From contig JAAEUB010000100.1 of NCBI GenBank assembly GCA_024227755.1, forward strand, positions 1 through 41,546: a stretch of DNA of 41,546 nt, written 5' to 3'. The stretch's first letter is position 1, and each line of letters begins with the position of its first letter. The notes beneath the pieces are model-generated. The model ran no database searches. It saw only the letters and a program-made list of their open reading frames with translations, and was not told the origin of the DNA. Source of the DNA: Paracoccaceae bacterium (GTDB taxonomy: Bacteria > Pseudomonadota > Alphaproteobacteria > Rhodobacterales > Rhodobacteraceae). The position numbers and the translations under genes were made by a program. Positions 1,055 to 41,258 of the stretch are shown piece by piece.

Positions 1055-2671
1055 TCATTTCTCGTACAATATGAACATCTCGTTGCGCCTGATTTCGACC
1101 AGTTCCACCCCGCTTTCAGATATCTCGGTCAGGATCATACCGCGCACGATGGTTGACATCGGGCAAAATGGGACGATCACATAATCCGCCGCCTCAAAAC
1201 CCGGCAGGCCACCATAGTACCAAGGTGATCCACCAGGCAGTGGTTCAAAGGCCCCAAACAGCCAAAAGCTCGATAATAAATCGGCGGTGAATACGGTCTT
1301 TCCCTCGACCAGACCTGATGCCCTAAGGTCCGCCGACATGGAAGAAAACCACGCGATCACGCCCAGCTCAATATAACAGTTCGGCAAAGTTTCTTCTTGA
1401 AAAACAAAGACTTCATCCCGCATTTCCGGATCAGTAAAAGCCTCAAAGGGCGTCCCTGCCCCATCCAGTGCCACGCGGGCATCGACCCGTTTGGCGCGTA
1501 CGCGTCTGGTTTGTAAATCCTCGTGTACGCCTGAGCCTTGCAAAAGTGGTACATGCTTTTCAGGGTCAATACGCATATGCCGAAACGGCGAATATGCAAG
1601 ATTGATAAAGCTGGGGGAGGCCATGGCCAACGCGCCAATTGCCGTCCATGTTACCGCCTTTTGCAGATCCCATCCCAACCCGTTGCGAATGTCGTGATTT
1701 GGCGCAATCACAAGAAGCATCACCCCAAAAAGCCCCAGCCACTGCGGGTCGTTCCCAGAGTTCTGAAAGGTCACATAGAAGAACCCCGGAGCCAGCAAAA
1801 GAAGCATTAACCCTTCCAGTCCGCGCCCAGCCTGTCGCAGGAAAATAACTCCTGCAATCAATAAGATAGAGCCACCCATATAGGCAGGGGAACCGATGAC
1901 ACCGATCAGCGGCAAGCTGGGCTGCGGGCGCACCTGGCTGGCCGAAACGGTCATCAGATCACCGAAATACGCCACCCAGAAACCCGTACCACCAGCCAGT
2001 GTCACCAGCGCCATCACCATCAGACCCGACAAAACCGCCCAGATCGTCGTCATCCCCGCCTTGCGCCCGATCAGCCCGACCAGCACAGGTGCTGCAAAAC
2101 CGGCAAAATACGTCACCTTGATCAACGCCATCACTGCCATACCCAATCCCAAAACCACCCCATCCGCAAACGGATGAGGTTTGTCTTCATTTGGCAGGAA
2201 AATGGTCGCGATCACCAAAAATGCCGCGGCCCAAGCCCAGCGGTTATAATGCATCGAAACTGACACCGCGCTGTCTTCTTCGCCATGCACCAGGGCAAGG
2301 ATCAAGACCAGTACCGCGGCCCCAAAAATGTAGGCTGTAACCCCCTTGAAGCGACTAAAAGACACCCACCAAATTGCTGGCAAAAACACAATAGCAACAA
2401 GTAGTTGCGAATATAGGAAGGCGTGGCCCACCCCAAAGCCAGCTTTCAGAAAAGCGACGATCGGCAGGAAGGCGAAAAGGCCAATTGGTGTGACAAAATC
2501 GAGATGCGGCCAGTCCCCTTGCGCCATGCGCAACACCATCTGCAACAGGTGCAGTGTATCACCCTCGTGCTTGCCAATGAAGAAACCGCCTTTACTCATC
2601 GCGGCACCCGCAAGGACAGCGGTAACCAGCACCAAAAAGCCCGTTAAAATCGCTTTGTTCACCCGATCCAT
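1055..2671 (-). CDS. Polytopic membrane protein, possible GT-C-type glycosyltransferase
   Basis: A 538-residue protein with a TM helix at residues 8-26 and about ten further hydrophobic segments to roughly residue 370, followed by a soluble C-terminal domain of about 160 residues. The first loop carries acidic residues (KHEGDTLH, then HLDFVTPIG), which resembles the arrangement in GT-C-fold lipid-linked-sugar transferases (acidic residues, then a D-x(3)-P-x-G turn after TM1). That likeness is by eye only. The C-terminal domain has two cysteines (PNCYIE, VPFCPMS) and would face the periplasm in a GT-C topology. It converges on the pilus genes and diverges from the AAA+ gene. A role in glycan or surface modification is a guess. 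Start: ATG after an AT-rich leader without a strong ribosome-binding site. Confidence 0.6.
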   Translation of the reverse strand: MDRVNKAILTGFLVLVTAVLAGAAMSKGGFFIGKHEGDTLHLLQMVLRMAQGDWPHLDFVTPIGLFAFLPIVAFLKAGFGVGHAFLYSQLLVAIVFLPAIWWVSFSRFKGVTAYIFGAAVLVLILALVHGEEDSAVSVSMHYNRWAWAAAFLVIATIFLPNEDKPHPFADGVVLGLGMAVMALIKVTYFAGFAAPVLVGLIGRKAGMTTIWAVLSGLMVMALVTLAGGTGFWVAYFGDLMTVSASQVRPQPSLPLIGVIGSPAYMGGSILLIAGVIFLRQAGRGLEGLMLLLLAPGFFYVTFQNSGNDPQWLGLFGVMLLVIAPNHDIRNGLGWDLQKAVTWTAIGALAMASPSFINLAYSPFRHMRIDPEKHVPLLQGSGVHEDLQTRRVRAKRVDARVALDGAGTPFEAFTDPEMRDEVFVFQEETLPNCYIELGVIAWFSSMSADLRASGLVEGKTVFTADLLSSFWLFGAFEPLPGGSPWYYGGLPGFEAADYVIVPFCPMSTIVRGMILTEISESGVELVEIRRNEMFILYEK

Positions 2672-2814: not shown

Positions 2815-4125
2815 ATGAATATGCAGACCTCAGGCGTTATGGCGCCACCCCCGGCGCGCGACATGGCCGATACCGGGCTGAACGTTGTCATGATGCGTGA
2901 CATCATGCTCAAAACCATGTTCCGCACCAACAAGGAAGAAATCAGCGAACTTGTACGCGTCCTTTGCCTGCCCTCACGAGTGGTTCAGGAGCTTATTGAC
3001 GCCGCCCGCGATCAGGGATTGGTTGAGGCGACCGGGACCCTGCATGCGGGCTCCAGCGGCGAAATGGGGTTTCGTCTGACTGATGGCGGCAAGGCCCGTG
3101 CGCTGGATGCTCTTAGCCAGTCGGAATACTACGGTGCCATGCCGGTCCCGATGGAGGTCTACGCCAAACAGGTCAAGCGCCAGTCAATCCGCAACATCCA
3201 GATGACGCGCAACCAGTTGACCGGTGCCATGGGGCATCTCGTTTTGCCTGATGAGCTTCTGGATCACCTTGGCCCGGCCGTCGGGTCGGGGCGCTCAATC
3301 TTGATGTACGGACCACCGGGTAACGGTAAATCGTCTATTTCCAATGGTATACGCGACGCATTGGGCGACAAAATCTATGTGCCGCGGGCAATCGAGTATG
3401 CCGGGCAAGTAATCACAGTCTATGACCCGATCGTGCATTCGGCCGCAGAAGAACAGGTCGATGACCCTGACTCGTTACGTCGCACCTCGAACCGGTATGA
3501 CCTTCGCTATGTACTGTGTGAGCGGCCAACAGTGATCACCGGTGGTGAGTTGACGATCGACATGCTCAACCTGGTCTACAACGCCACTTCGCGGACCTAT
3601 CAGGCACCGCTGCAACTGAAATCTACTGGCGGCGTATTCATCGTCGACGACCTTGGACGCCAAGCCGAACCGCCACAGGCATTGATCAACCGATGGATCG
3701 TGCCGCTTGAGGAAAACAAAGATATCCTCGCCCTGCAATCGGGTGAAAAATTCGAAGTGCCGTTTGACACATTGGTCATTTTTTCAACCAACTTTCATCC
3801 AAACGAAATCTTCGACAAAGCGGCCCTGCGCCGGATTTTCTTCAAAATTAAAATTGACGGACCCTCTCAGGAGGATTTCCTAAAGATTTTTGCCATGGTA
3901 GCGCGTAAGAAAAATATCGCGCTTGATGAAGCAACTTTGGTTCATCTACTCAAGAAGAAATACCCGACCATTGATAACATCTATGCCAACTACCAGCCGA
4001 TTTTCCTTATAGATCAGATGCTTGCAATATGTGACTTCGAGGGTATTCAACCACAGATGACGCCCGAACTAATAGACCGTGCCTGGGCCAACATGTTTGT
4101 GCGCGAGGAACATATCGAACACTGA
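2815..4125 (+). CDS. AAA+ ATPase with N-terminal winged-helix-like region
   Basis: 436 residues. Residues 25-105 read like a winged-helix domain: helices, then a GFRLTDGGKARA wing typical of MarR-like folds. The AAA+ core follows, with Walker A GPPGNGKS at 166-173, Walker B FIVDD at 275-279, sensor-1 STN at 324-326, and paired arginines 339-340 (ALRRIFFKI) where arginine fingers are expected. Asp-Asp in place of the usual Asp-Glu in Walker B is unusual but can still support ATP use. Residues 360-436 look like the small helical lid. It is a soluble protein with no membrane segment. The gene lies just beyond the Tad pilus genes and 23 bp before the helicase, so it may be co-transcribed with either group. 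No named family recognised; substrate and partner unknown. Confidence 0.75.
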   Translation: MNMQTSGVMAPPPARDMADTGLNVVMMRDIMLKTMFRTNKEEISELVRVLCLPSRVVQELIDAARDQGLVEATGTLHAGSSGEMGFRLTDGGKARALDALSQSEYYGAMPVPMEVYAKQVKRQSIRNIQMTRNQLTGAMGHLVLPDELLDHLGPAVGSGRSILMYGPPGNGKSSISNGIRDALGDKIYVPRAIEYAGQVITVYDPIVHSAAEEQVDDPDSLRRTSNRYDLRYVLCERPTVITGGELTIDMLNLVYNATSRTYQAPLQLKSTGGVFIVDDLGRQAEPPQALINRWIVPLEENKDILALQSGEKFEVPFDTLVIFSTNFHPNEIFDKAALRRIFFKIKIDGPSQEDFLKIFAMVARKKNIALDEATLVHLLKKKYPTIDNIYANYQPIFLIDQMLAICDFEGIQPQMTPELIDRAWANMFVREEHIEH

Positions 4126-4148: not shown

Positions 4149-6551
4149 ATGGCCTGCATGACCGCCCTGCCCGCCCTTTTTCAAAGCTGGTTTGCTGAAC
4201 GCGACTGGCAACCGCATCCGCATCAGCTGGAAGTCCTGAACCGCGCTGACAGCTCCGCGATAATGCTGATTGCCCCGACGGGCGGCGGCAAGACGCTTGC
4301 AGGATTCCTACCTTCTTTTGTTGATTTAGGGGAAAGTCCCGCCCCAGGCTTGCACACTTTATACATTTCACCGTTGAAAGCCCTGGCTGCGGACATGCGC
4401 CGCAACCTTGGCAAACCAATCAACGACATGGGTTTGGCGATCCGGGTCGAGGACCGTTCAGGCGATACCAGCCAGACCCGCAAGAAGGCCCAACGTGCCG
4501 ATCCCCCACATATCCTGTTAACCACGCCCGAAAGTCTGGCCCTGTTGCTCAGTTACGAGGACGCGCCGCGGATATTCGCCAGCCTCAAACGCGTTGTTGT
4601 GGATGAATTGCATGCCCTGGCCGAAAGCAAACGGGGCGACCAGCTGATGCTCGGCCTGACGCGTCTTATGGCCCTTGCGCCGGACCTGAAACTGATCGGT
4701 CTTTCTGCCACGGTTGAGGACCCGCCAGCGCTGGCGCATTACCTGCACCATGAAACAGAAATCCTGATTGCCGATCCCGGACCCGATCCCAAAATAGCCA
4801 TGCTTACCACCGACACACCTCCGCCGTGGTCGGGGGGTGGTGGTCGCTATGCGATCCCCGAGGTTCTGGCCGCGGTGAAAGCGCACAAAACCACTTTGAT
4901 ATTCCACAACACACGTGCCCAGGCCGAGATCTTTTTTCACCATTTATGGCTGGCCAACGAAGAATTGCTTCCTATCGGTATCCATCATGGATCACTCAGC
5001 CGCGAGGCGCGGGGCAAGGTTGAACAGGCCATGGTTGGCGGCGAACTTAAGGCGGTTGTCTGCACCGGAAGCCTGGACCTCGGCCTTGATTGGGGCGACG
5101 TCGATCTTGTCATTCAGGTCGGTGCACCAAAGAATGTCAAACGTCTGGTGCAACGTATCGGACGGGCCAATCACCAGTATAATGCGCCTTCCAAAGCACT
5201 GTTATTGCCCGCAAATCGGTGGGAGATCATTGAGTGTCAGGCGGCAATAGAGGCAGCCCTTGCCCACGATCTTGACGGTGATCCACCTGGCCCGGGACCG
5301 CGCGATGTCCTTTGCCAGCACATCCTGATCCGCGCCTGCTCAGGGCCCTTTCAGGCCGACAAGCTTTACCGCGAGGTCAGAAATGCTGGTGCCTATGCAA
5401 AGCTGACCCGGTCTGAATTTGACGAATGCCTCAACTTTGTTGCCACAGGTGGTTATGCGCTCAGGGCCTATGACCGCTGGCAGCGGCTGCGCCAGTGCCC
5501 GGACGGTAACTGGCAACTTCGCGACCCTCGTGCAGCCCGGATGATACGCATGAATATAGGCACCATACAGGACACTGATACATTGAAAGTGCGCATGAAA
5601 GGACGCGGCGGCAAAGCCTTGGGCGAGGTTGAGGAGGGTTTTGCCGCCAGCCTTGTACCCGGTGATACTTTCCTGATGGGTGGTCAGATTGTACGCTTTG
5701 AAGCCCTGCGCGAAATGGTGGTGCAGGTAAGCCGCGACCGTGGCCGCCGCCCGAAAATCGCTGTCTTCATGGGCACCAAATTCTCAACCTCGACCCAGCT
5801 TTCGGCGCGTATTCTCAAGCTGATCCACCGTGACGATCTGTCTGCCCTGCCATCCCATACGCGCGAATGGATCACCCTGCAAAATACCGTCTCGCGCCTG
5901 CCGCGCACCGGACGTTTGCTTTTTGAAAGCTTCCCCCATGAAGGCCGGGCACATAGCTGCATTTACGGGTTTGCCGGACGGGGCGCGATGCAGACCCTTG
6001 GCCTTATGCTAACAAGGCGGATGGAGAGTGCCGGGTTGGGACCATTGGGATTTGTTGCCACCGATTATGCCACGTTGATCTGGTCGCTAACAGAAGTCAC
6101 TGATGTTGACACCCTTCTTGATCCAGATGGCTTAAGCGAGGGTCTGGACGGGTGGTTGGCGGAAAATGCCCTGATGAAGCGCAGCTTTCGTGCCAGCGCC
6201 ACCATCGCCGGGCTAATCCAACGCAACCTGCCGGGCCAGCGCAGCACGGGGCGTCAGGCGACATTCAGTTCAGACATCCTTTATGATACGCTTAGGAGAT
6301 ATGACCCAGATCATCTGCTTCTGACGATAACGCGTGAAGAGGCACTGCGAGGGTTAATCGGGTTTGACCGGGTCGAAAACCTTTTGAGGCGCTCAACGGG
6401 CCGGATAGACCATGTCAGGCTGGACCATGTCACACCATTTGCAGCGCCCTTGTTTCTGGAGGTTGGCAAAGTGCCACTTGATGGCGCGGGGGCCGAAACC
6501 TTAATGGCGAATGAGGCGGCAAAACTAATGGAGGCGGCCGGTCTGTCATAG
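4149..6551 (+). CDS. Lhr-like DEXH-box helicase (ligase-associated DNA damage response type)
   Basis: An 800-residue superfamily 2 helicase. Motif I APTGGGKT lies at 42-49, motif II DELH at 152-155 and motif III SAT at 186-188. A second RecA domain with the QRIGRANH motif VI follows, then a long C-terminal region (about 400-800) of the Lhr type. The length fits the bacterial Lhr-core family that occurs with an ATP-dependent DNA ligase, an exonuclease and PdeM. PdeM follows here after about 40 bp, which supports that subgroup over the ~1500-residue Lhr. It is expected to translocate 3'-5' on single-stranded DNA during repair. The ligase and exonuclease are not in this window. Start: ATG 4149 follows GGGGTAAA; ATG 4158 is an alternative. 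Confidence 0.9.
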   Translation: MACMTALPALFQSWFAERDWQPHPHQLEVLNRADSSAIMLIAPTGGGKTLAGFLPSFVDLGESPAPGLHTLYISPLKALAADMRRNLGKPINDMGLAIRVEDRSGDTSQTRKKAQRADPPHILLTTPESLALLLSYEDAPRIFASLKRVVVDELHALAESKRGDQLMLGLTRLMALAPDLKLIGLSATVEDPPALAHYLHHETEILIADPGPDPKIAMLTTDTPPPWSGGGGRYAIPEVLAAVKAHKTTLIFHNTRAQAEIFFHHLWLANEELLPIGIHHGSLSREARGKVEQAMVGGELKAVVCTGSLDLGLDWGDVDLVIQVGAPKNVKRLVQRIGRANHQYNAPSKALLLPANRWEIIECQAAIEAALAHDLDGDPPGPGPRDVLCQHILIRACSGPFQADKLYREVRNAGAYAKLTRSEFDECLNFVATGGYALRAYDRWQRLRQCPDGNWQLRDPRAARMIRMNIGTIQDTDTLKVRMKGRGGKALGEVEEGFAASLVPGDTFLMGGQIVRFEALREMVVQVSRDRGRRPKIAVFMGTKFSTSTQLSARILKLIHRDDLSALPSHTREWITLQNTVSRLPRTGRLLFESFPHEGRAHSCIYGFAGRGAMQTLGLMLTRRMESAGLGPLGFVATDYATLIWSLTEVTDVDTLLDPDGLSEGLDGWLAENALMKRSFRASATIAGLIQRNLPGQRSTGRQATFSSDILYDTLRRYDPDHLLLTITREEALRGLIGFDRVENLLRRSTGRIDHVRLDHVTPFAAPLFLEVGKVPLDGAGAETLMANEAAKLMEAAGLS

Positions 6552-10011: not shown

Positions 10012-11688
10012 TTAGAACAAGCCTTCTACTTCGCCGGCGTCGTTTAAGCCAATACCCAAAGCCGCTGGTTTGCGCGGCAGACCCGGCATGGTCATGATCT
10101 GCCCACAGATCACCACAACGAAACCAGCACCGGCCGACAGGCGTACCTCGCGGACCGGCACGGAATGACCCGAAGGCGCGCCGCGCAGGTTAGGGTCGGT
10201 CGAGAAAGAATACTGCGTTTTCGCCATACAAACCGGCAAATGGCCATACCCGGCCTCTTCCCATGCTCGCAATTGATCGCGTATCTTCTTGTCGGCCATA
10301 ACCTCATCAGCGTGGTAGATACGCTTGGCTACTACCTCGATTTTTTCGAAAAGGCTAAGGTCATCGCGGTAAAGGGGGGCAAACTGAGCCACCTGCGCAT
10401 CGGCAATTTCAGCAACGCGTTTCGCCAACTCCTCGGTGCCCTCGCCGCCAAGCTCCCAATGGCGGCACAGAATTGCCTCGGCCCCTTCGGCGGCAGCTGC
10501 ATCGCGGATAACCGCAACTTCGGCATCGGTGTCGGTGACGAAGTGGTTGATCGCCACCAATACCGGCACACCGAAGGCTTTAAGGTTGGAGATATGGCGC
10601 GCCAGATTGGGGCAGCCATCAGCCACCGCGGCCACGTTTTCGCCAGCCAGTTCAGCCTTGGACAGGCCACCGTTCATCTTCATAGCCCGCACCGTGGCCA
10701 CCAAAACTACAACATCGGGCGCAAGACCTGCCTTGCGGCATTTGATGTTCATAAATTTCTCGGCGCCAAGGTCAGCACCAAAACCAGCCTCGGTGACCAC
10801 ATAATCTGCCAGCTTCAACGCGGCTTTTGTCGAAGTGACCGAATTGCAGCCATGGGCGATATTGGCAAATGGGCCCCCGTGGACAAAGGCCGGGTTGTTT
10901 TCCAAAGTCTGAACCAGATTGGGCAGCATTGCATCGCGCAGCAGCACCGTCATCGCCCCATCTGCGCCAATGTCACGGGCGTAAATGGCTTTGCGATCAC
11001 GGGTATAGGCAACGATGATGTCGCCCAGGCGTTTTTGCAGGTCGCCCAGATCAGTTGCAAGGCACAAGATCGCCATAACCTCAGAGGCCACGGTGATGTC
11101 AAAGCCGGTTTGGCGGGCAAATCCGTTCGCAACTCCACCAAGGCTGATCACAGTATCGCGAAGGGCGCGGTCATTCATGTCCATGACCCGTTTCCAAACG
11201 ATCCGGCGCTCATCAATCTCCAGTTCATTGCCCCAATAGATGTGGTTATCAATCATCGCTGTCAGCAGGTTGTGGGCGCTGGTAATGGCGTGAAAATCAC
11301 CGGTAAAATGCAGGTTCATTTCTTCCATCGGCACCACTTGCGCGTACCCGCCACCTGCCGCCCCGCCCTTCATGCCAAAACACGGGCCAAGGCTGGCCTC
11401 GCGGATGCATACGGCGGTTTGCTTGCCGATCCGGTTCATACCGTCAGCAAGGCCTACGGTAGTTGTGGTTTTACCTTCACCCGCCGGAGTGGGCGTAATT
11501 GCGGTGACCAAAATCAGTCTGCCGTCCTCGCGATCCGAAAGCGAGTTGAGGAAGTCCTGACTGACCTTGGCCTTATCATGGCCATAAGGGACCAAATCGG
11601 CATCAGGAATACCCAGCTTCGCACCAATTTCCTGAATTGGCTTCTTGTTCGCCTCGCGGGCAATCTCGATATCGGTCTTATAGCTCAT
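10012..11688 (-). CDS. fhs: Formate-tetrahydrofolate ligase
   Basis: 558 residues, the usual size. The N-terminus [17 protein letters not shown], the nucleotide-binding loop [16 protein letters not shown] and the segment [18 protein letters not shown] are hallmark sequences of this enzyme. It couples ATP hydrolysis to formation of 10-formyl-THF from formate and THF in the cytoplasm. In marine Rhodobacterales the fhs/folD route handles formate and methyl carbon from compounds such as DMSP and methylamines; that link is general knowledge, not shown here. The start at 11688 is preceded by a perfect AGGAGG five bases upstream. The longer in-frame start at 11715 would bury that site, so it was rejected. 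Confidence 0.96.
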
Positions 11689-11790
11689 CTGGGCCTCCTG
11701 GCGCTCGTGCGACATGTTGTCGACGAACGTATACTGACTGATTCCAATCTGTACCGACTAGATTACGACATATTCTATGCTGAAAACGAT

Positions 11791-11898
11791 TTACACGCAG
11801 CTAGCATCAGGGTGTCCAGCTTGGATGAGGTCAATCTCAAACCCCGATTGGCGACAAAAATCTTTCACCAGCCCCTTTTGAAATGACGGGCACACCAT
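11791..11898 (-). CDS. Possible 35-residue small ORF upstream of fhs
   Basis: An ATG-started frame in the 223-bp gap between the MOSC gene and fhs encodes MVCPSFQKGLVKDFCRQSGF and 15 further residues ending in ASCV. GGAAAG lies two to three bases before the ATG, too close for a good ribosome-binding site. The amino-acid mix looks protein-like, with three cysteines, but no family is recognised. It may be a genuine small protein, a leader peptide in front of fhs, or the remnant of a lost gene. Confidence 0.2.
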   Translation of the reverse strand: MVCPSFQKGLVKDFCRQSGFEIDLIQAGHPDASCV

Positions 11899-36785: not shown

Positions 36786-37478
36786 TCACGGACTTATGGG
36801 ACCCTTACCCCAAATCGTTTGCAGAGCTCTAAGCACCGCCGCCAACCCGGCACGCGGCGTAATGACCAACATTCCCGGTCGGTCAAATTCCAGGCTCACT
36901 TGACCACACGGCCCGACCTCGTTCGAGGTGCCAACGCGCCCCGAAGGGCTCATCTTCAGTGCCTCAACCGGATGTACCAACCCGGTAGCGTTCGCCACGA
37001 CCTCGGCCATGGGAAACAGTGACAGCCGGCTGCCGGGGGGCAAATCCAGCGACGCTTCTGCCGGAACATGAAAGCAAAGATCAACCTCGCCCACCAAAAC
37101 GCACCTTTTTCCCGGATAGCGGGCCAATGCATTCAGACAGGCAAGCTGATGATCCAGCCGCCCACCCATAAAACCCACGCCTAAAATGAGCGGCGCATCC
37201 ACCATACGCAGCGCTTTATCGAAATCGGTGCTGTCTTGTTCCGAAACCCGGTGTAGATTTTCCGCAGGCAAGGCCGCAATACTTGAGGCATCAAGCGAAT
37301 CCATATCGCCAATGACCAGTTGCGGCACTTTTCCCCAAGCCAAAGCCTGCTTTGCCCCGCCGTCCGCCGCAACCAGCGTGGGGGCATGTGTCAACGCTTG
37401 CTCCAGAATTTGCTGACTAGATTCTCCGCCACCGATTAAGGTCACATTGTTTCGAAATGGGAAATTTACGGTTTTCAT
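36786..37478 (-). CDS. Thiamine diphosphokinase (thiamine pyrophosphokinase)
   Basis: 230 residues. Visible family motifs are VTLIGGGESSQQIL at the N-terminus, LVAADGGAKQAL, VIGDMDSLD with the metal-binding aspartates, EQDSTDFDKAL and GFMGGRLDHQLACLNALA. The enzyme makes thiamine diphosphate from thiamine and ATP, typically where thiamine is salvaged rather than made from thiamine monophosphate. I see no TPP riboswitch in the 141-bp region upstream. The ATG at 37478 is the more family-like start; a 12-residue extension to ATG 37514 is possible, and neither has a good ribosome-binding site. Confidence 0.9.
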   Translation of the reverse strand: MKTVNFPFRNNVTLIGGGESSQQILEQALTHAPTLVAADGGAKQALAWGKVPQLVIGDMDSLDASSIAALPAENLHRVSEQDSTDFDKALRMVDAPLILGVGFMGGRLDHQLACLNALARYPGKRCVLVGEVDLCFHVPAEASLDLPPGSRLSLFPMAEVVANATGLVHPVEALKMSPSGRVGTSNEVGPCGQVSLEFDRPGMLVITPRAGLAAVLRALQTIWGKGPISP

Positions 37479-37619
37479 AGGTTCGATTGTACTCAAATTG
37501 GAAACTAAACACATTCCTGCCCCGAAAAAATACCGCCATTTTCGCGGAATTGTGCAATTTTATGACCCAATGCATGCTAAACACAACCTTGCTGGATCGG
37601 GGGAGAAAGCGAGTAGACG

Positions 37620-39632
37620 ATGGTTAATGGTAGTAAAATCCTTACGGTTTCGTATGGCACGTTCTCGTGCACACTTGAGGGTTTTGATGACCCATTTTCA
37701 ACCATGCGGTCAATCGCAGAGTACTTTCGGGACCTTGCAGCGGATGATCGCTATTTTGGGGCCGAACCACCAACACCGGATGCAGAAATGCTGCACCGGA
37801 TCGCCGAGCGTGAAAATAAGCGCAAGGTAGAGGCGCGCATTGAGGATAATAGTGTTGTCCTGCGCCAGGCCGACACCGAAATACCCGAAGGCAAGGCCAC
37901 CCAGGTTGCTGGTGAGGCATTGTTGTTATCGCCTGAAATCAAGTCCCCGGTCGCCGAAGCCGCCCCTGTTGCTGAGGTCACTCCAGCTGTTGAAGCTCCG
38001 ACCGAAACGGCGCAAGCGCCACAAGTGGCCAGTGCCGAACAACCTGCGCAACCGGTCAGCCCGCCTGCTGCCGATTTTTCGGACACCTCAATCGCTGCCA
38101 AATTGCGGCGTATCCGTTCAGTGGTGGACAACCGCGACGAGGATAAAAGCCGTGAGGATAGTGAAAACGGTTTGGCAGATGATTTTTATGCCGAAGCTTT
38201 GGCCGCCATGCATGACGAGGAAATTGGAGATCAATTTGAAGCAGATGAGCCTGCAAAATCCGAGCCAGCCGAATTCTTGGACACTACCGAAGAAGATTTC
38301 GTTGAAGAATTTGAAGATGAATTTGATGACGAAGATGAATTTGAAACCGACGAAGATGAAACGCCTGCTTTCGCCATGGCAGAAGAGACCAGATCATTAG
38401 AGGTCGAAACACCAGAAGACGAACAGGATCCCGCCACCGATACAGCCTCCGACTATCAAGAAGACGACACCACAAGCGACATTCGCCAGACCGGCGAGGG
38501 CAAGGCCGAAGTGGAATTTGATGCCGACGAAGCTGAGGCCGAGACGGACATTTATGAAGAGTTTGAGGAAGAGTTTGAGGAAGACGAAGAGGATGACGAA
38601 GAGTTCGAAGACGAAAATGTCTTTAGCGAGCAAAAGGCGCCGGAGCCGATGGCCATTGCGCGTGTCATTAAGGTGCGCCGCAACCAGGCGAAAGAGCCTG
38701 TAGCGCGACAAGTTAAAGTGGCGCAGGAAGCACCATTGGAAGACATGGGCGAAGGCGACACGATGTTGTCACCCGAGGACGAAGCCGCATTGATGGCTGA
38801 ATTGGCCGAGGTTGAAAGAGATGCTGAGGACGATAAAGCGGCGGGACCGGGGGCAAAAACAGGATCTATTCGCAGGCCTGTTGCTGACGCCGAGGATTCG
38901 TCTATACAAAACCGGACAGCGTTTGATGACGGAGATTTTGCCGGGACCGACGCGCTTGACCGGATAATGGCCGAAGCCAATACCAAGCTTGAAAGTGATG
39001 AGGCCAATCAAAAACGCGCCTCAATCGCCCACTTGCGTGCAGCGGTTCAAGCAAAACGCGCCGATGTTGAACAATGGGACCAGATCGAAAACGAGGATAC
39101 TTCTGAAGAATACCGCGATGATTTAGCGCGGGTCGTACGCCCGCGCCGCGTCCGCACCGCAAGCCCCAAAGACGCGCGGCGTCTGGCACCGCTGGTTTTG
39201 GTTACCGAGCAACGGGTGGATACGTCCACCGATGATAGCGCTCAGGTGGAAAGTGAAGCAACCGACGCCAGCCCGCGCCGGGTAAGCAAAGCTTCGGGCA
39301 AGGACGGGTCGGGGGCCAAGGCAGCCGGGCAAGACCTGATCGGGGATTTTACAGCATTTGCGGCCGAAGCCGGTGCCAAGGGAACTACTGAGCTGCTTGA
39401 AGCCGCAGCTGCATTCCGAACTTACGTTATTGGGCAAGATACTTTTTCCCGCCCACAAGTTATGAACCTGATCCTGAAAGCGAACCCAACCGGCAACCTG
39501 ACCCGCGAAGAAGGTCTGCGCGCCTTTGGTAAGCTGATCCGCGAAGGCGGAATCACCAAAATTCAGCGTGGTCGCTATTCAATCTCGGAAAGCAGCCGTT
39601 TTCGTCCGGGTCAAAAGCGCGCCAGCGCCTGA
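37620..39632 (+). CDS. Large acidic protein of unknown function with conserved ends
   Basis: 670 residues in three parts. The N-terminal ~83 (SKILTVSYGTFSCTLEGFDD, then SIAEYFRDLAADDRYFGAEP and LHRIAERENKRKVEARIED) look like a folded domain. Residues ~84-570 are low-complexity, with long Asp/Glu-rich tracts (about 220-250 and 313-335) and Pro/Ala-rich stretches, and are probably disordered. Residues ~572-670 look globular and helical, ending in a basic winged-helix-like segment (REEGLRAFGKLIREGGITKI, then GRYSISESSRF). Proteins with this N-terminus are widespread in Rhodobacterales to my knowledge, but their role is unknown to me. No signal peptide or TM helix. The gene is monocistronic with its own terminator. 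The upstream palindrome AATTGTGCAATT (37548-37559) could be an operator. Confidence 0.7.
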   Translation: MVNGSKILTVSYGTFSCTLEGFDDPFSTMRSIAEYFRDLAADDRYFGAEPPTPDAEMLHRIAERENKRKVEARIEDNSVVLRQADTEIPEGKATQVAGEALLLSPEIKSPVAEAAPVAEVTPAVEAPTETAQAPQVASAEQPAQPVSPPAADFSDTSIAAKLRRIRSVVDNRDEDKSREDSENGLADDFYAEALAAMHDEEIGDQFEADEPAKSEPAEFLDTTEEDFVEEFEDEFDDEDEFETDEDETPAFAMAEETRSLEVETPEDEQDPATDTASDYQEDDTTSDIRQTGEGKAEVEFDADEAEAETDIYEEFEEEFEEDEEDDEEFEDENVFSEQKAPEPMAIARVIKVRRNQAKEPVARQVKVAQEAPLEDMGEGDTMLSPEDEAALMAELAEVERDAEDDKAAGPGAKTGSIRRPVADAEDSSIQNRTAFDDGDFAGTDALDRIMAEANTKLESDEANQKRASIAHLRAAVQAKRADVEQWDQIENEDTSEEYRDDLARVVRPRRVRTASPKDARRLAPLVLVTEQRVDTSTDDSAQVESEATDASPRRVSKASGKDGSGAKAAGQDLIGDFTAFAAEAGAKGTTELLEAAAAFRTYVIGQDTFSRPQVMNLILKANPTGNLTREEGLRAFGKLIREGGITKIQRGRYSISESSRFRPGQKRASA

Positions 39633-39659
39633 GACAGACAAAATCTGAGCGTTAACAAG

Positions 39660-39690
39660 GCGGGGTGAGCAAAAGCTCACTCCGCTTTTT
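39660..39690 (+). terminator. Intrinsic terminator of the acidic-protein gene
   Basis: GCGGGGTGAGC (39660-39670), loop AAAA, GCTCACTCCGC (39675-39685), then TTTTT. The 11-base stem contains one G-T wobble pair. The right arm overlaps the last codons of the convergent DUF2842 gene, whose stop codon lies at 39677-39679. Confidence 0.9.
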
Positions 39691-39961
39691 CGTTGTCAGT
39701 GGTTTTGCCTGCGGGCGGCACCGGATCATGAGGGTAGCTATCCGGGTCGGCGTCAGGATCTGGCTGGCCGACGCCGCGGAAAATACCTTTGAACGGCAAG
39801 ATCCATAACACTCCCAGCCCCACATAAATCGCCAATTCCACCACGATTGAAGGGCGCTCAAACAAAGACACAATTTTTACCGCAACGATGATATATAACG
39901 GCAAACCCACCAAAAGTATAAGCAATGACAGACGCTTACGCGATTTGTAGGAGAGGGCCAT
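39677..39961 (-). CDS. DUF2842 membrane protein
   Basis: 94 residues with the DUF2842 hallmark: SYKSRKRLSLLILLVGLPLYIIVAV as a first TM segment, then a second TM segment (ELAIYVGLGVLWILPFKGIF). A hydrophilic C-terminal tail rich in Asp and Pro follows. It occurs behind purA in many Rhodobacterales, as here (four bases between the purA stop and this ATG), so it is surely co-transcribed. The ATG at 39961 lies behind GGAGAGGG. No function is known. Confidence 0.88.
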   Translation of the reverse strand: MALSYKSRKRLSLLILLVGLPLYIIVAVKIVSLFERPSIVVELAIYVGLGVLWILPFKGIFRGVGQPDPDADPDSYPHDPVPPAGKTTDNEKAE

Positions 39962-39965
39962 GAGA

Positions 39966-41258
39966 TCAATCCGCAAATGGATCTGTTACAAGAATGGTAT
40001 CTTCTCGCTCTGGTGAAGTCGAAAGCAGAGCCACCGGGCAATTGATCAGCTCTTCCACGCGGCGGACATATTTTATTGCCGCTGCGGGCAGATCGGCCCA
40101 ACTGCGCGCGCCTTCGGTGGTGTCCTGCCAGCCCTCAAGAGTTTCATAGACCGGAACAACACGTGCCTGCTTATCGGCCGCAGTGGGCAAATAATCCAGC
40201 ATTTCGCCGTCAAGCTCATAGCCGGTGCAGATCCTCAATTCGTCGAACCCGTCCAGCACGTCAAGCTTGGTCAGTGCAATGCCATTGACCCCCGAAGTCG
40301 CACAGGTTTGACGCACCAGAACCGCGTCGAACCAGCCACAACGCCGCTTGCGTCCCGTGGTTGTTCCAAATTCATGACCGCGCTCGCCCAGCATTTGCCC
40401 GTCGGCATCGTCAAGTTCGGTTGGGAACGGCCCCTCGCCTACCCGGGTGGTGTAGGCCTTCACTATCCCCAACACAAAATCAATGCTGCCCGGTCCGATG
40501 CCGGTTCCTGTCGCTGCCTGACCCGAGATGACATTGGATGAGGTCACAAATGGGTAGGTGCCGAAATCAATATCCAACAATGCCCCCTGAGCGCCCTCAA
40601 ACAGGATGCGTTTGCCAGCTTTTCGCTGTTCGTTCATCACTTTCCAAACAGGTCCGGCATATTCCAGTATGCCCGGTGCAACCTCCTCTAATTTGGCAAT
40701 CAAGGCGTCGCGGTCGATTGGTTCAAGCCCCAATCCCGAACGTAGCGCGTTGTGGTGAATCAATGCCCGGTCTACCCTGAGTGTAAGCGTCGCCCTATCC
40801 GCCAAATCCGCCACTCGGATCACCCTGCGTCCTACTTTGTCCTCGTAAGCAGGTCCAATTCCACGCCCAGTAGTGCCGATTTTGGCGACCGAGTTCTGCC
40901 CTTCACGCGCCCGGTCCAGTTCGCCGTGAAATGGCAAAATCAGGGGGGTGTTTTCAGCGATCATCAGGGTTTCGGGCGAAATTTCCACGCCTTGTTCACG
41001 AAGCCCCGCAATTTCACTCAGCAAGTGCCAGGGATCAAGAACCACCCCATTGCCGATGACGCTTAACTTACCGCCACGCACCACCCCGGATGGCAGCGCA
41101 TGCAGTTTGTAGACCTCGCCGTCGATGACCAGCGTATGGCCTGCATTATGTCCACCCTGAAAGCGGGCGATCACATCGGCGCGTTCAGAAAGCCAATCGA
41201 CAATCTTACCCTTGCCCTCGTCGCCCCATTGTGCGCCTACCACGACTACATTGGCCAT
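39966..41258 (-). CDS. purA: Adenylosuccinate synthetase
   Basis: 430 residues, the standard length. The GTP-binding N-terminus [20 protein letters not shown] and the [14 protein letters not shown] loop, the [15 protein letters not shown] segment, the [20 protein letters not shown] block and the [14 protein letters not shown] segment are all present. It catalyses the first committed step from IMP to AMP. Start: ATG behind GGAGCAGGA. The 288-bp region upstream to the window edge contains an AT-rich hairpin and must hold the purA promoter. Confidence 0.98.

Follow-up and report, generated by a model that had tools for sequence, protein, structure and literature searches.

What does a protein do when its two ends are closely conserved and the long acidic stretch between them is free to vary? 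The question is raised by an open reading frame (ORF) at 37620..39632 on the forward (+) strand of contig JAAEUB010000100.1 (assembly GCA_024227755.1, a Paracoccaceae bacterium), the whole 41,546-nucleotide (nt) stretch of which was analysed and is called the window here. The ORF begins with ATG and encodes 670 amino acids (aa), giving a protein with a pI of 4.2 and a net charge of -89. Our answer, to which we would attach a probability of roughly 40%, is that this is a cytosolic hub specific to the Rhodobacteraceae and anchored on nucleic acid, a role that we infer from the pattern of conservation and from a predicted winged helix at the C-terminal end.

Is it a real gene, and what has selection kept?

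The ORF is a real gene of the Rhodobacteraceae. Compared with a relative from the same genus (locus L031), the changes at codon positions 1, 2 and 3 number 9, 6 and 39 over 85 codons of the N-terminal part and 26, 21 and 53 over 101 codons of the C-terminal part, and this excess at third positions supports its coding status. The relatives' first residues align with those of the window protein, so the start codon is correctly chosen, and the gene is present as one copy in its own genome (90% complete).

At least 561 relatives came out of a scan of named genomes, and the best 80 were kept as named loci. An 89-row alignment (A4) was then made of the window protein, 60 of these 80 loci (omitting 11 truncated copies, 2 doubles and 7 proteins at least 960 aa long) and 28 of the 31 loci L031-L061 (omitting L037, a stand-alone domain, and L057 and L061, both cut by contig ends); a further alignment, A6, holds 61 hand-picked rows. 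With the mean share of the commonest residue per column across the 89 relatives as the measure of conservation, residues 5-85 score 0.83, residues 572-664 score 0.56 and residues 176-345 only 0.25. A preliminary description of the locus had proposed two folded, conserved ends around a disordered acidic centre, and as to the ends it was right: the poor conservation that would have told against it did not occur, and the C-terminal winged helix is modelled with high confidence.

About the centre it was right in part. AlphaFold2, run on the whole protein with the 89 rows, returns a mean predicted local distance difference test score (pLDDT) of 60.3 and a predicted template modelling score (pTM) of 0.32, with 328 of 670 residues below a pLDDT of 50, and residues 176-345 (38145..38654; all parts of the gene are on the + strand) form a 170-residue low-complexity stretch that is 45% aspartate plus glutamate and carries a net charge of -69. 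The centre is therefore largely disordered and acidic, but it is not featureless, since five longer helices are predicted inside it and a series of conserved motifs had been missed, with mean shares of 0.55-0.79 (residues 157-172, 346-356, 383-397, 443-489, 495-511, 521-535 and 549-556). After a variable linker (residues 86-156, 37875..38087, mean share 0.27) comes a conserved short helix, SIAAKLRRIRSVV... (residues 157-175, 38088..38144; 0.66 over 157-172). Beyond the acidic stretch lie a short basic motif around ARVIKVRR (residues 346-356, 38655..38687), a conserved helix, LSPEDEAALMAELAEVE... (residues 383-407, 38766..38840), a run of predicted helices that includes IAHLRAAVQAKRA and YRDDL (residues 443-505, 38946..39134; 0.66 over 495-511), the linear motif RLAPLVLVTEQRVD (residues 521-535, 39180..39224; 0.79), which stands outside the helices and strands that DSSP assigns to the model, and a PRRV motif (residues 552-555, 39273..39284; 0.74 over 549-556). 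The three helical segments are drawn from conservation and AlphaFold2 together, and the basic and PRRV motifs from conservation. Loose versions of the motifs are found in most of the 89 relatives (QRxD in 86, YRxDL in 84, APLxL in 82 and PRR[VI] in 81), and stricter ones in fewer (I-x-x-LxAA in 53, AAKLxRIR in 48).

The acidic stretch follows quite different rules. Total length runs from 314 to 1159 aa over the 89 rows, and the inner motifs persist across this range, while the net charge of the centre goes from +5 to -206 (median -87), and the equivalent of residues 86-465 is down to 56 aa with a net charge of +5 in L060 and to 93 aa with a net charge of -3 in L050. Selection thus acts on the two ends and the short motifs, and the acidic stretch is usual, yet free to vary. 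Of the two roles suggested earlier for the acidic part, that of a DNA mimic can be dropped as its main function, since this is the least conserved part of the protein and the one that shrinks away; a stretch under so little constraint, and all but absent from the shortest relatives, fits a spacer or tether better.

Does the C-terminal domain bind DNA?

By its predicted fold, the C-terminal domain (residues 566-667, 39315..39620) is a generic winged helix. AlphaFold2 places the winged helix at residues 566-655, with pLDDT values of 90-98 in ten-residue blocks of 571-660, and the high-scoring secondary structure runs through helices at 589-604, 611-621 and 629-642 to strands at 645-649 and 652-655, which is the helix bundle followed by a beta wing that defines the superfamily. 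The best-ranked solved neighbours are winged-helix domains (best E 0.012), and VIA, given model residues 576-670, returns Z scores of 7.3-8.5 at root-mean-square deviations (rmsd) of 1.6-5.4, with the tool's own warning that a Z below 8 may reflect merely a common arrangement.

Lysine or arginine is found in at least 75% of the 89 relatives at seven columns (611, 629, 634, 641, 644, 647 and 650), all of them within 611-650, which covers the last two helices and the wing; the interval 570-610 has no such column (Fisher p 0.005, for a threshold and a split chosen post hoc and for rows that are not independent). A winged helix usually contacts nucleic acid through the region of its last helix and wing, and that is where 7 of 7 conserved basic columns are placed in the model, so that DNA binding by this domain seems likely to us and the earlier suggestion that nucleic-acid binding is plausible has gained ground. 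The winged helix of the preliminary description is likewise predicted here; the basic tail that went with it is partly a local matter, residues 566-667 having a net charge of +6 in the window protein.

Several points weigh against a nucleic-acid anchor and the hub built upon it. The aligned residues 570-664 have a median net charge of -1 over the 89 relatives, so the domain is mostly not basic overall; among its nearest folds are winged helices that bind protein (cullin WHB, Scc1-C and MukE/MukF); and no DNA-binding family profile matches convincingly, AbiEi reaching E 0.0036 and DUF6577, below the cut-off, E 0.24. In addition, the Paracoccus genomes examined and at least two further loci (L183 and L186) live without the gene, so the process that it serves can be lost. 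Since the domain is not basic in most relatives and has equally good protein-binding neighbours, we put DNA binding as likely rather than as established.

If these neighbours were the better guide, the winged helix would be a protein-docking module in the style of the kleisins or of cullin WHB, in a scaffold that does not touch nucleic acid. The highest VIA score does belong to cullin WHB (Z 8.5, rmsd 2.2, 66 residues aligned), MukE/MukF reach 7.4-7.7 and Scc1-C 7.5, and a net charge near zero in most relatives would suit such a role, but the replication or DNA-binding domains ORC2 (8.1), MCM (7.9) and RosR (7.8) tie with these within 1 Z, and the conserved basic face also speaks against such a role. 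Kleisins also have two folded ends with a flexible middle, and those of Scc1-C and MukF share the general winged-helix fold with our domain (Z about 7.5), but the window protein gives no match to the kleisin profile PF02616 (SMC_ScpA), and all 11 genomes tested have a separate ScpA, which disposes of the idea that it replaces the kleisin. All in all, we consider a pure protein-docking scaffold possible, although rather unlikely.

The pairing of a winged helix with a strongly acidic disordered region is also the anatomy of the Bacillus delta subunit, in which a winged-helix-like domain is combined with a polyacidic disordered region that clears nucleic acid, and the protein might by analogy be a transcription factor that works on RNA polymerase. 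Here, no HARE-HTH or delta profile matches at E up to 1, the acidic part lies inside the chain and can be all but lost, and the N-terminal domain would be left unexplained, so to this explanation we give a small chance.

What might the N-terminal domain hold on to?

The N-terminal domain (residues 1-85, 37620..37874) is the best-conserved part of the protein, and its predicted order of elements is beta-beta-alpha-alpha-beta-beta. In the whole-protein model its pLDDT is about 65-84; folded alone it shows the same elements, with a mean pLDDT of 79.7 in the best model and 60.7-79.7 across five. Searches of solved structures with this model found no clear neighbour (Foldseek best E 0.69; VIA best Z 5.0, to FtsQ), from which novelty of the fold does not follow.

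One genome (G007) carries a 74-aa stand-alone copy of this domain (L037:4962-5186) between two pairs of dynamin-like GTPase genes (L037:959-8998), all four of which match Pfam Dynamin_N. Similar clusters on Ruegeria and Leisingera plasmids have other small proteins at that place: the six translated from four plasmid clusters with dynamin-family pairs were none of them N-domain-like by eye, and the Rhodobacter CZR27 cluster lists no small protein between its GTPases. With no such protein in the other dynamin clusters, we take the G007 case as a single stray.

A near-invariant domain suggests a conserved partner, and this is how we would put the pieces of a nucleic-acid-anchored hub together. 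The C-terminal winged helix would dock on DNA or nucleoprotein through its last helix and wing, and the N-terminal domain on itself or on a conserved partner protein. Between them, the disordered acidic centre would serve as a long spacer that repels itself and holds the two ends away from each other and from non-specific DNA, while the short helices and motifs at 157-172, 383-397, 443-511 and 521-535 might be landing sites for further partners.

How widespread is the gene, and where has it been lost?

The gene is specific to the Rhodobacteraceae, a large bacterial group, marine and photosynthetic, in which it is widespread and usually found in one fixed position. Whole-protein BLAST finds a match in 31 of 61 genomes, each of which belongs to the same genus or family, and in none of 24 genomes of other families, and a profile of the N-terminal domain matches 352 of 390 genomes of the order. 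When 20 non-matching or weakly matching genomes were searched again with the C-terminal region, 7 proved to carry the gene, so some apparent absences are merely diverged copies. Across the class the N-domain profile matches 8 of 385 genomes, five of them clearly and within the family and three at the borderline (E 0.006-0.01) outside it; the C-domain profile matches 6 of 289, four in the family and two weak outsiders, G539 and G448 (the latter at E 4.6e-4, at a contig edge). Among the best 80 of the at least 561 named relatives, all are labelled as Rhodobacteraceae genera, Rhodobacterales or something broader, and carriers include Rhodobacter capsulatus, Celeribacter, Thioclava and Maritimibacter.

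Of 31 loci examined for synteny, 29 have a recognisable main gene. In 28 of these 29 it adjoins a gene for thiamine pyrophosphokinase (TPK), the remaining one being cut by a contig end. In 23 of 29, DUF2842 and purA are also found no more than about 3 kb away, inverted in one case (L052). The other two loci are L060, whose diverged copy of 314 aa occupies the same place, and L037, the stand-alone fragment located elsewhere. Short diverged copies in the usual place are also seen in L190, L189, L191 and L192 (called ORFs of 230, 321, 418 and 425 aa), and L188 has a diverged copy of 656 aa. In L181 (3186-3932, genome G196) the place is taken by a 248-aa ORF that keeps only scraps of the motifs and may be a decaying copy.

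In the Paracoccus genomes examined, the gene has been cleanly lost. Six genomes of a genus handled here as g24 (L176-L180 and L193) have TPK, DUF2842 and purA in consecutive order with no space for the gene. In two g24 genomes there are plasmid contigs identical with ones on record for Paracoccus albus and Paracoccus aestuarii, on which grounds g24 is taken to be Paracoccus. All 14 listed g24 genomes are without the gene and none is among the matching rows, with 18 further non-matching genomes standing outside the list. L183 and L186 likewise have TPK beside DUF2842 and no gene, and in L182, L184, L185 and L187 the neighbourhood is rearranged or cut. Co-loss with MreB or FliG was entertained as a cause and rejected, both being retained in Paracoccus: all 44 genomes tested have MreB, including the 14 of g24, and 37 of 41 have FliG, including the same 14, with G033, G065, G069 and G288 lacking it.

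This loss bears on a bolder explanation, namely that the Rhodobacteraceae have in this protein their missing polar organiser. As a functional stand-in for PopZ, it would associate with itself into an acidic, disordered hub and collect the chromosome origin and other factors at a cell pole, with the winged helix or the inner motifs holding origin-ParB and the N-terminal domain holding a polar or membrane partner. PopZ (DUF2497) has conserved ends and an acidic disordered middle, much as here, and carries C-terminal oligomerisation helices. Paracoccus, the only genus seen to be without the gene throughout, is coccoid; a polar organiser discarded where a fixed pole matters less would fit, and the stray N-domain copy among dynamin-like GTPase genes would suit a membrane-remodelling partner. 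The PopZ profile (PF10691) matches none of 11 Rhodobacteraceae genomes, of which 7 carry the gene and 4 (3 Paracoccus and G198) do not, the Caulobacter control being positive. PopZ is reported as absent from many Rhodobacterales (PMC5182065) and from R. sphaeroides (PMC6414705), despite which the OriC1 and ParB1 of R. sphaeroides are found at the old pole (PMC6315104).

Yet PopZ is missing from the 3 tested Paracoccus genomes too, MreB and FliG are retained in Paracoccus, and the Paracoccus case is a single loss. Moreover, the window protein gives no match to PF10691 at E up to 1 and, instead of helical ends with oligomerisation helices at the C-terminus, it has a winged helix and an alpha/beta N-terminal domain. 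We see only a slim chance that it is the missing organiser.

Does the protein have relations elsewhere?

It had been called an orphan, and that has held up. No Pfam or NCBIfam profile claims either end at cut-off, whether the ends are searched separately or together; PDB sequences give nothing significant with either end (matches at E 0.65 to 1.5, taken as chance); and PHROGs and PADLOC, searched with the whole protein only, offer no family at cut-off. Whole-protein matches to HlyD_3 (E 0.081) and phrog_15118 (E 0.046) lie in regions of low complexity and were set aside as chance. The strongest weak match is the PADLOC profile AbiEi, at 14.9 bits over residues 601-664.

More telling are two small two-part proteins, L146 (166 aa, from another alphaproteobacterial family) and L194 (165 aa, from a Rhodobacteraceae genome that also carries the main gene), to which the winged helix is, by profile comparison, distantly related over its whole length. 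With hhalign, the C-domain alignment A2 matches the pair at a probability of 94.8 and E 4.9e-8 over 83 columns, and the full-length alignment at 89.0 and E 2.3e-6, both being pairwise values without database correction and the small-protein side having 2 rows only; plain BLAST of L146 against the window protein gives E 0.002, and the C-domain profile finds a protein of this type in a genome search at E 7.3e-6. Unlike the main family, the small proteins have no long acidic centre. Their N-terminal segment could be a hairpin plus helix by eye, and its resemblance to that of the main family is likewise by eye only, hhalign giving a probability of 1.1. At L199:6833-8601 in G539, the same place as L146:720-2488, three ORFs follow one another, of 173 aa, 166 aa (the C-domain relative) and 260 aa; the row looks like a small cassette, perhaps one for defence, although that is a guess by eye, and its middle protein has no convincing family match.

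Could the whole family then be anciently related to a small regulator of a defence or toxin-antitoxin system? The hhalign match, the position of L146 between two ORFs that look winged-helix-like by eye, and the AbiEi hit would all agree with it, the last through a likeness to a winged-helix antitoxin. However, this is a widespread single gene with fixed synteny and a long acidic centre, whose neighbours are TPK and DUF2842, with no AbiEii toxin gene found beside it; no relative of the window protein or L146 turned up in plasmid collections, none of L146 in the phage collection (a search that did not include the window protein itself), and none of L146 or the C-domain in viral contigs. We regard a defence origin as very unlikely.

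Has the family been noticed before?

Databases presumably use a CheA-like name for this family. In Table 4A of Gupta and Mok 2007 (PMC2241609), TM1040_1967 (YP_613961) appears as 'Putative CheA signal transduction', a Rhodobacterales-specific protein marked as missing in Paracoccus denitrificans by a footnote that five other entries of the table share. The window family has the same unusual distribution and, matched by distribution and label, is probably this signature-protein family, so that 'unnamed', as the gene had been described, is correct as regards domain annotation but probably overlooks the label that Table 4A prints. The label itself finds no backing in the domains of the window protein: Hpt, dimerisation, HATPase and CheW-like domains of CheA all go unmatched in Pfam and NCBIfam at E up to 1, and we give practically no credence to a CheA-type chemotaxis histidine kinase. 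In the literature searched, the coverage of which mostly excluded subscription journals, no functional study of the family was found, and the tag TM1040_1967 and its label occurred only in PMC2241609; the main text of PMC5513736 leaves the essentiality of the gene unsettled.

What surrounds the gene?

TPK (36786..37514, - strand; PF04263, 1.3e-18) is the divergent neighbour and DUF2842 (39677..39976, - strand; PF11003, 1.7e-18) the convergent one, followed by an ORF at 39966..41258 (- strand) that we take to be the adenylosuccinate synthase gene purA, recognised by its sequence rather than by a profile and syntenic in relatives. A hairpin resembling an intrinsic terminator, with a 14-pair stem, lies between the convergent genes (39657..39688, +); the region has 6 such sites against 3.6 expected, and this stem is by far the longest. 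With these flanks, the earlier reading of the gene as monocistronic is reasonable.

Ahead of the start codon by 14 nt stands the octamer AAAGCGAG (37606..37613, +), common to part of the family, which may belong to the ribosome-binding region or serve as an autoregulation element. AAAGYGAG occurs 38 times in the 40 nt ahead of the start in the 80 named loci, 33 times exactly 14 nt upstream, and GAAAGCGA is present in 54 of 105 upstream regions against 0.2 expected from base shuffles that ignore relatedness. The same 105 regions give no clear signal for CtrA or CcrM sites: TTAA-N7-TTAA is found in 1 (0.2 in shuffles), TTAACCAT in 2 (0.5), the half-site AACCAT in 12 (5.9, that is, twice expectation) and GANTC in 30 (about 41).

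Elsewhere in the window, two sizeable ORFs at 1055-2671 (-) and 2815-4125 (+), beside an Lhr-type helicase gene (4149-6551), have no Pfam match at 1e-5. At 10012-11886, ORFs of 567 aa (-) and 573 aa (+) overlap in antisense; the + ORF has no Pfam match, and the - ORF, beside a folate dehydrogenase/cyclohydrolase gene, is the likelier of the two to be real.

Why does it matter?

What this analysis adds to the picture of the family is its synteny and its loss from Paracoccus, the motifs within the centre, a basic face on the winged helix, distant relatives among small proteins and a probable listing in 2007. A gene carried by roughly nine in ten of the genomes sampled in its order has so far gone without a domain annotation, and the CheA label printed for the family is probably misleading. 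The named motifs and basic residues are the first targets for mutagenesis. Rhodobacteraceae position their origins without a recognisable PopZ, and the gene is a concrete candidate for a part in this; if it should turn out to encode merely a nucleoid hub, it would still be a lineage-specific one with a defined anchor.

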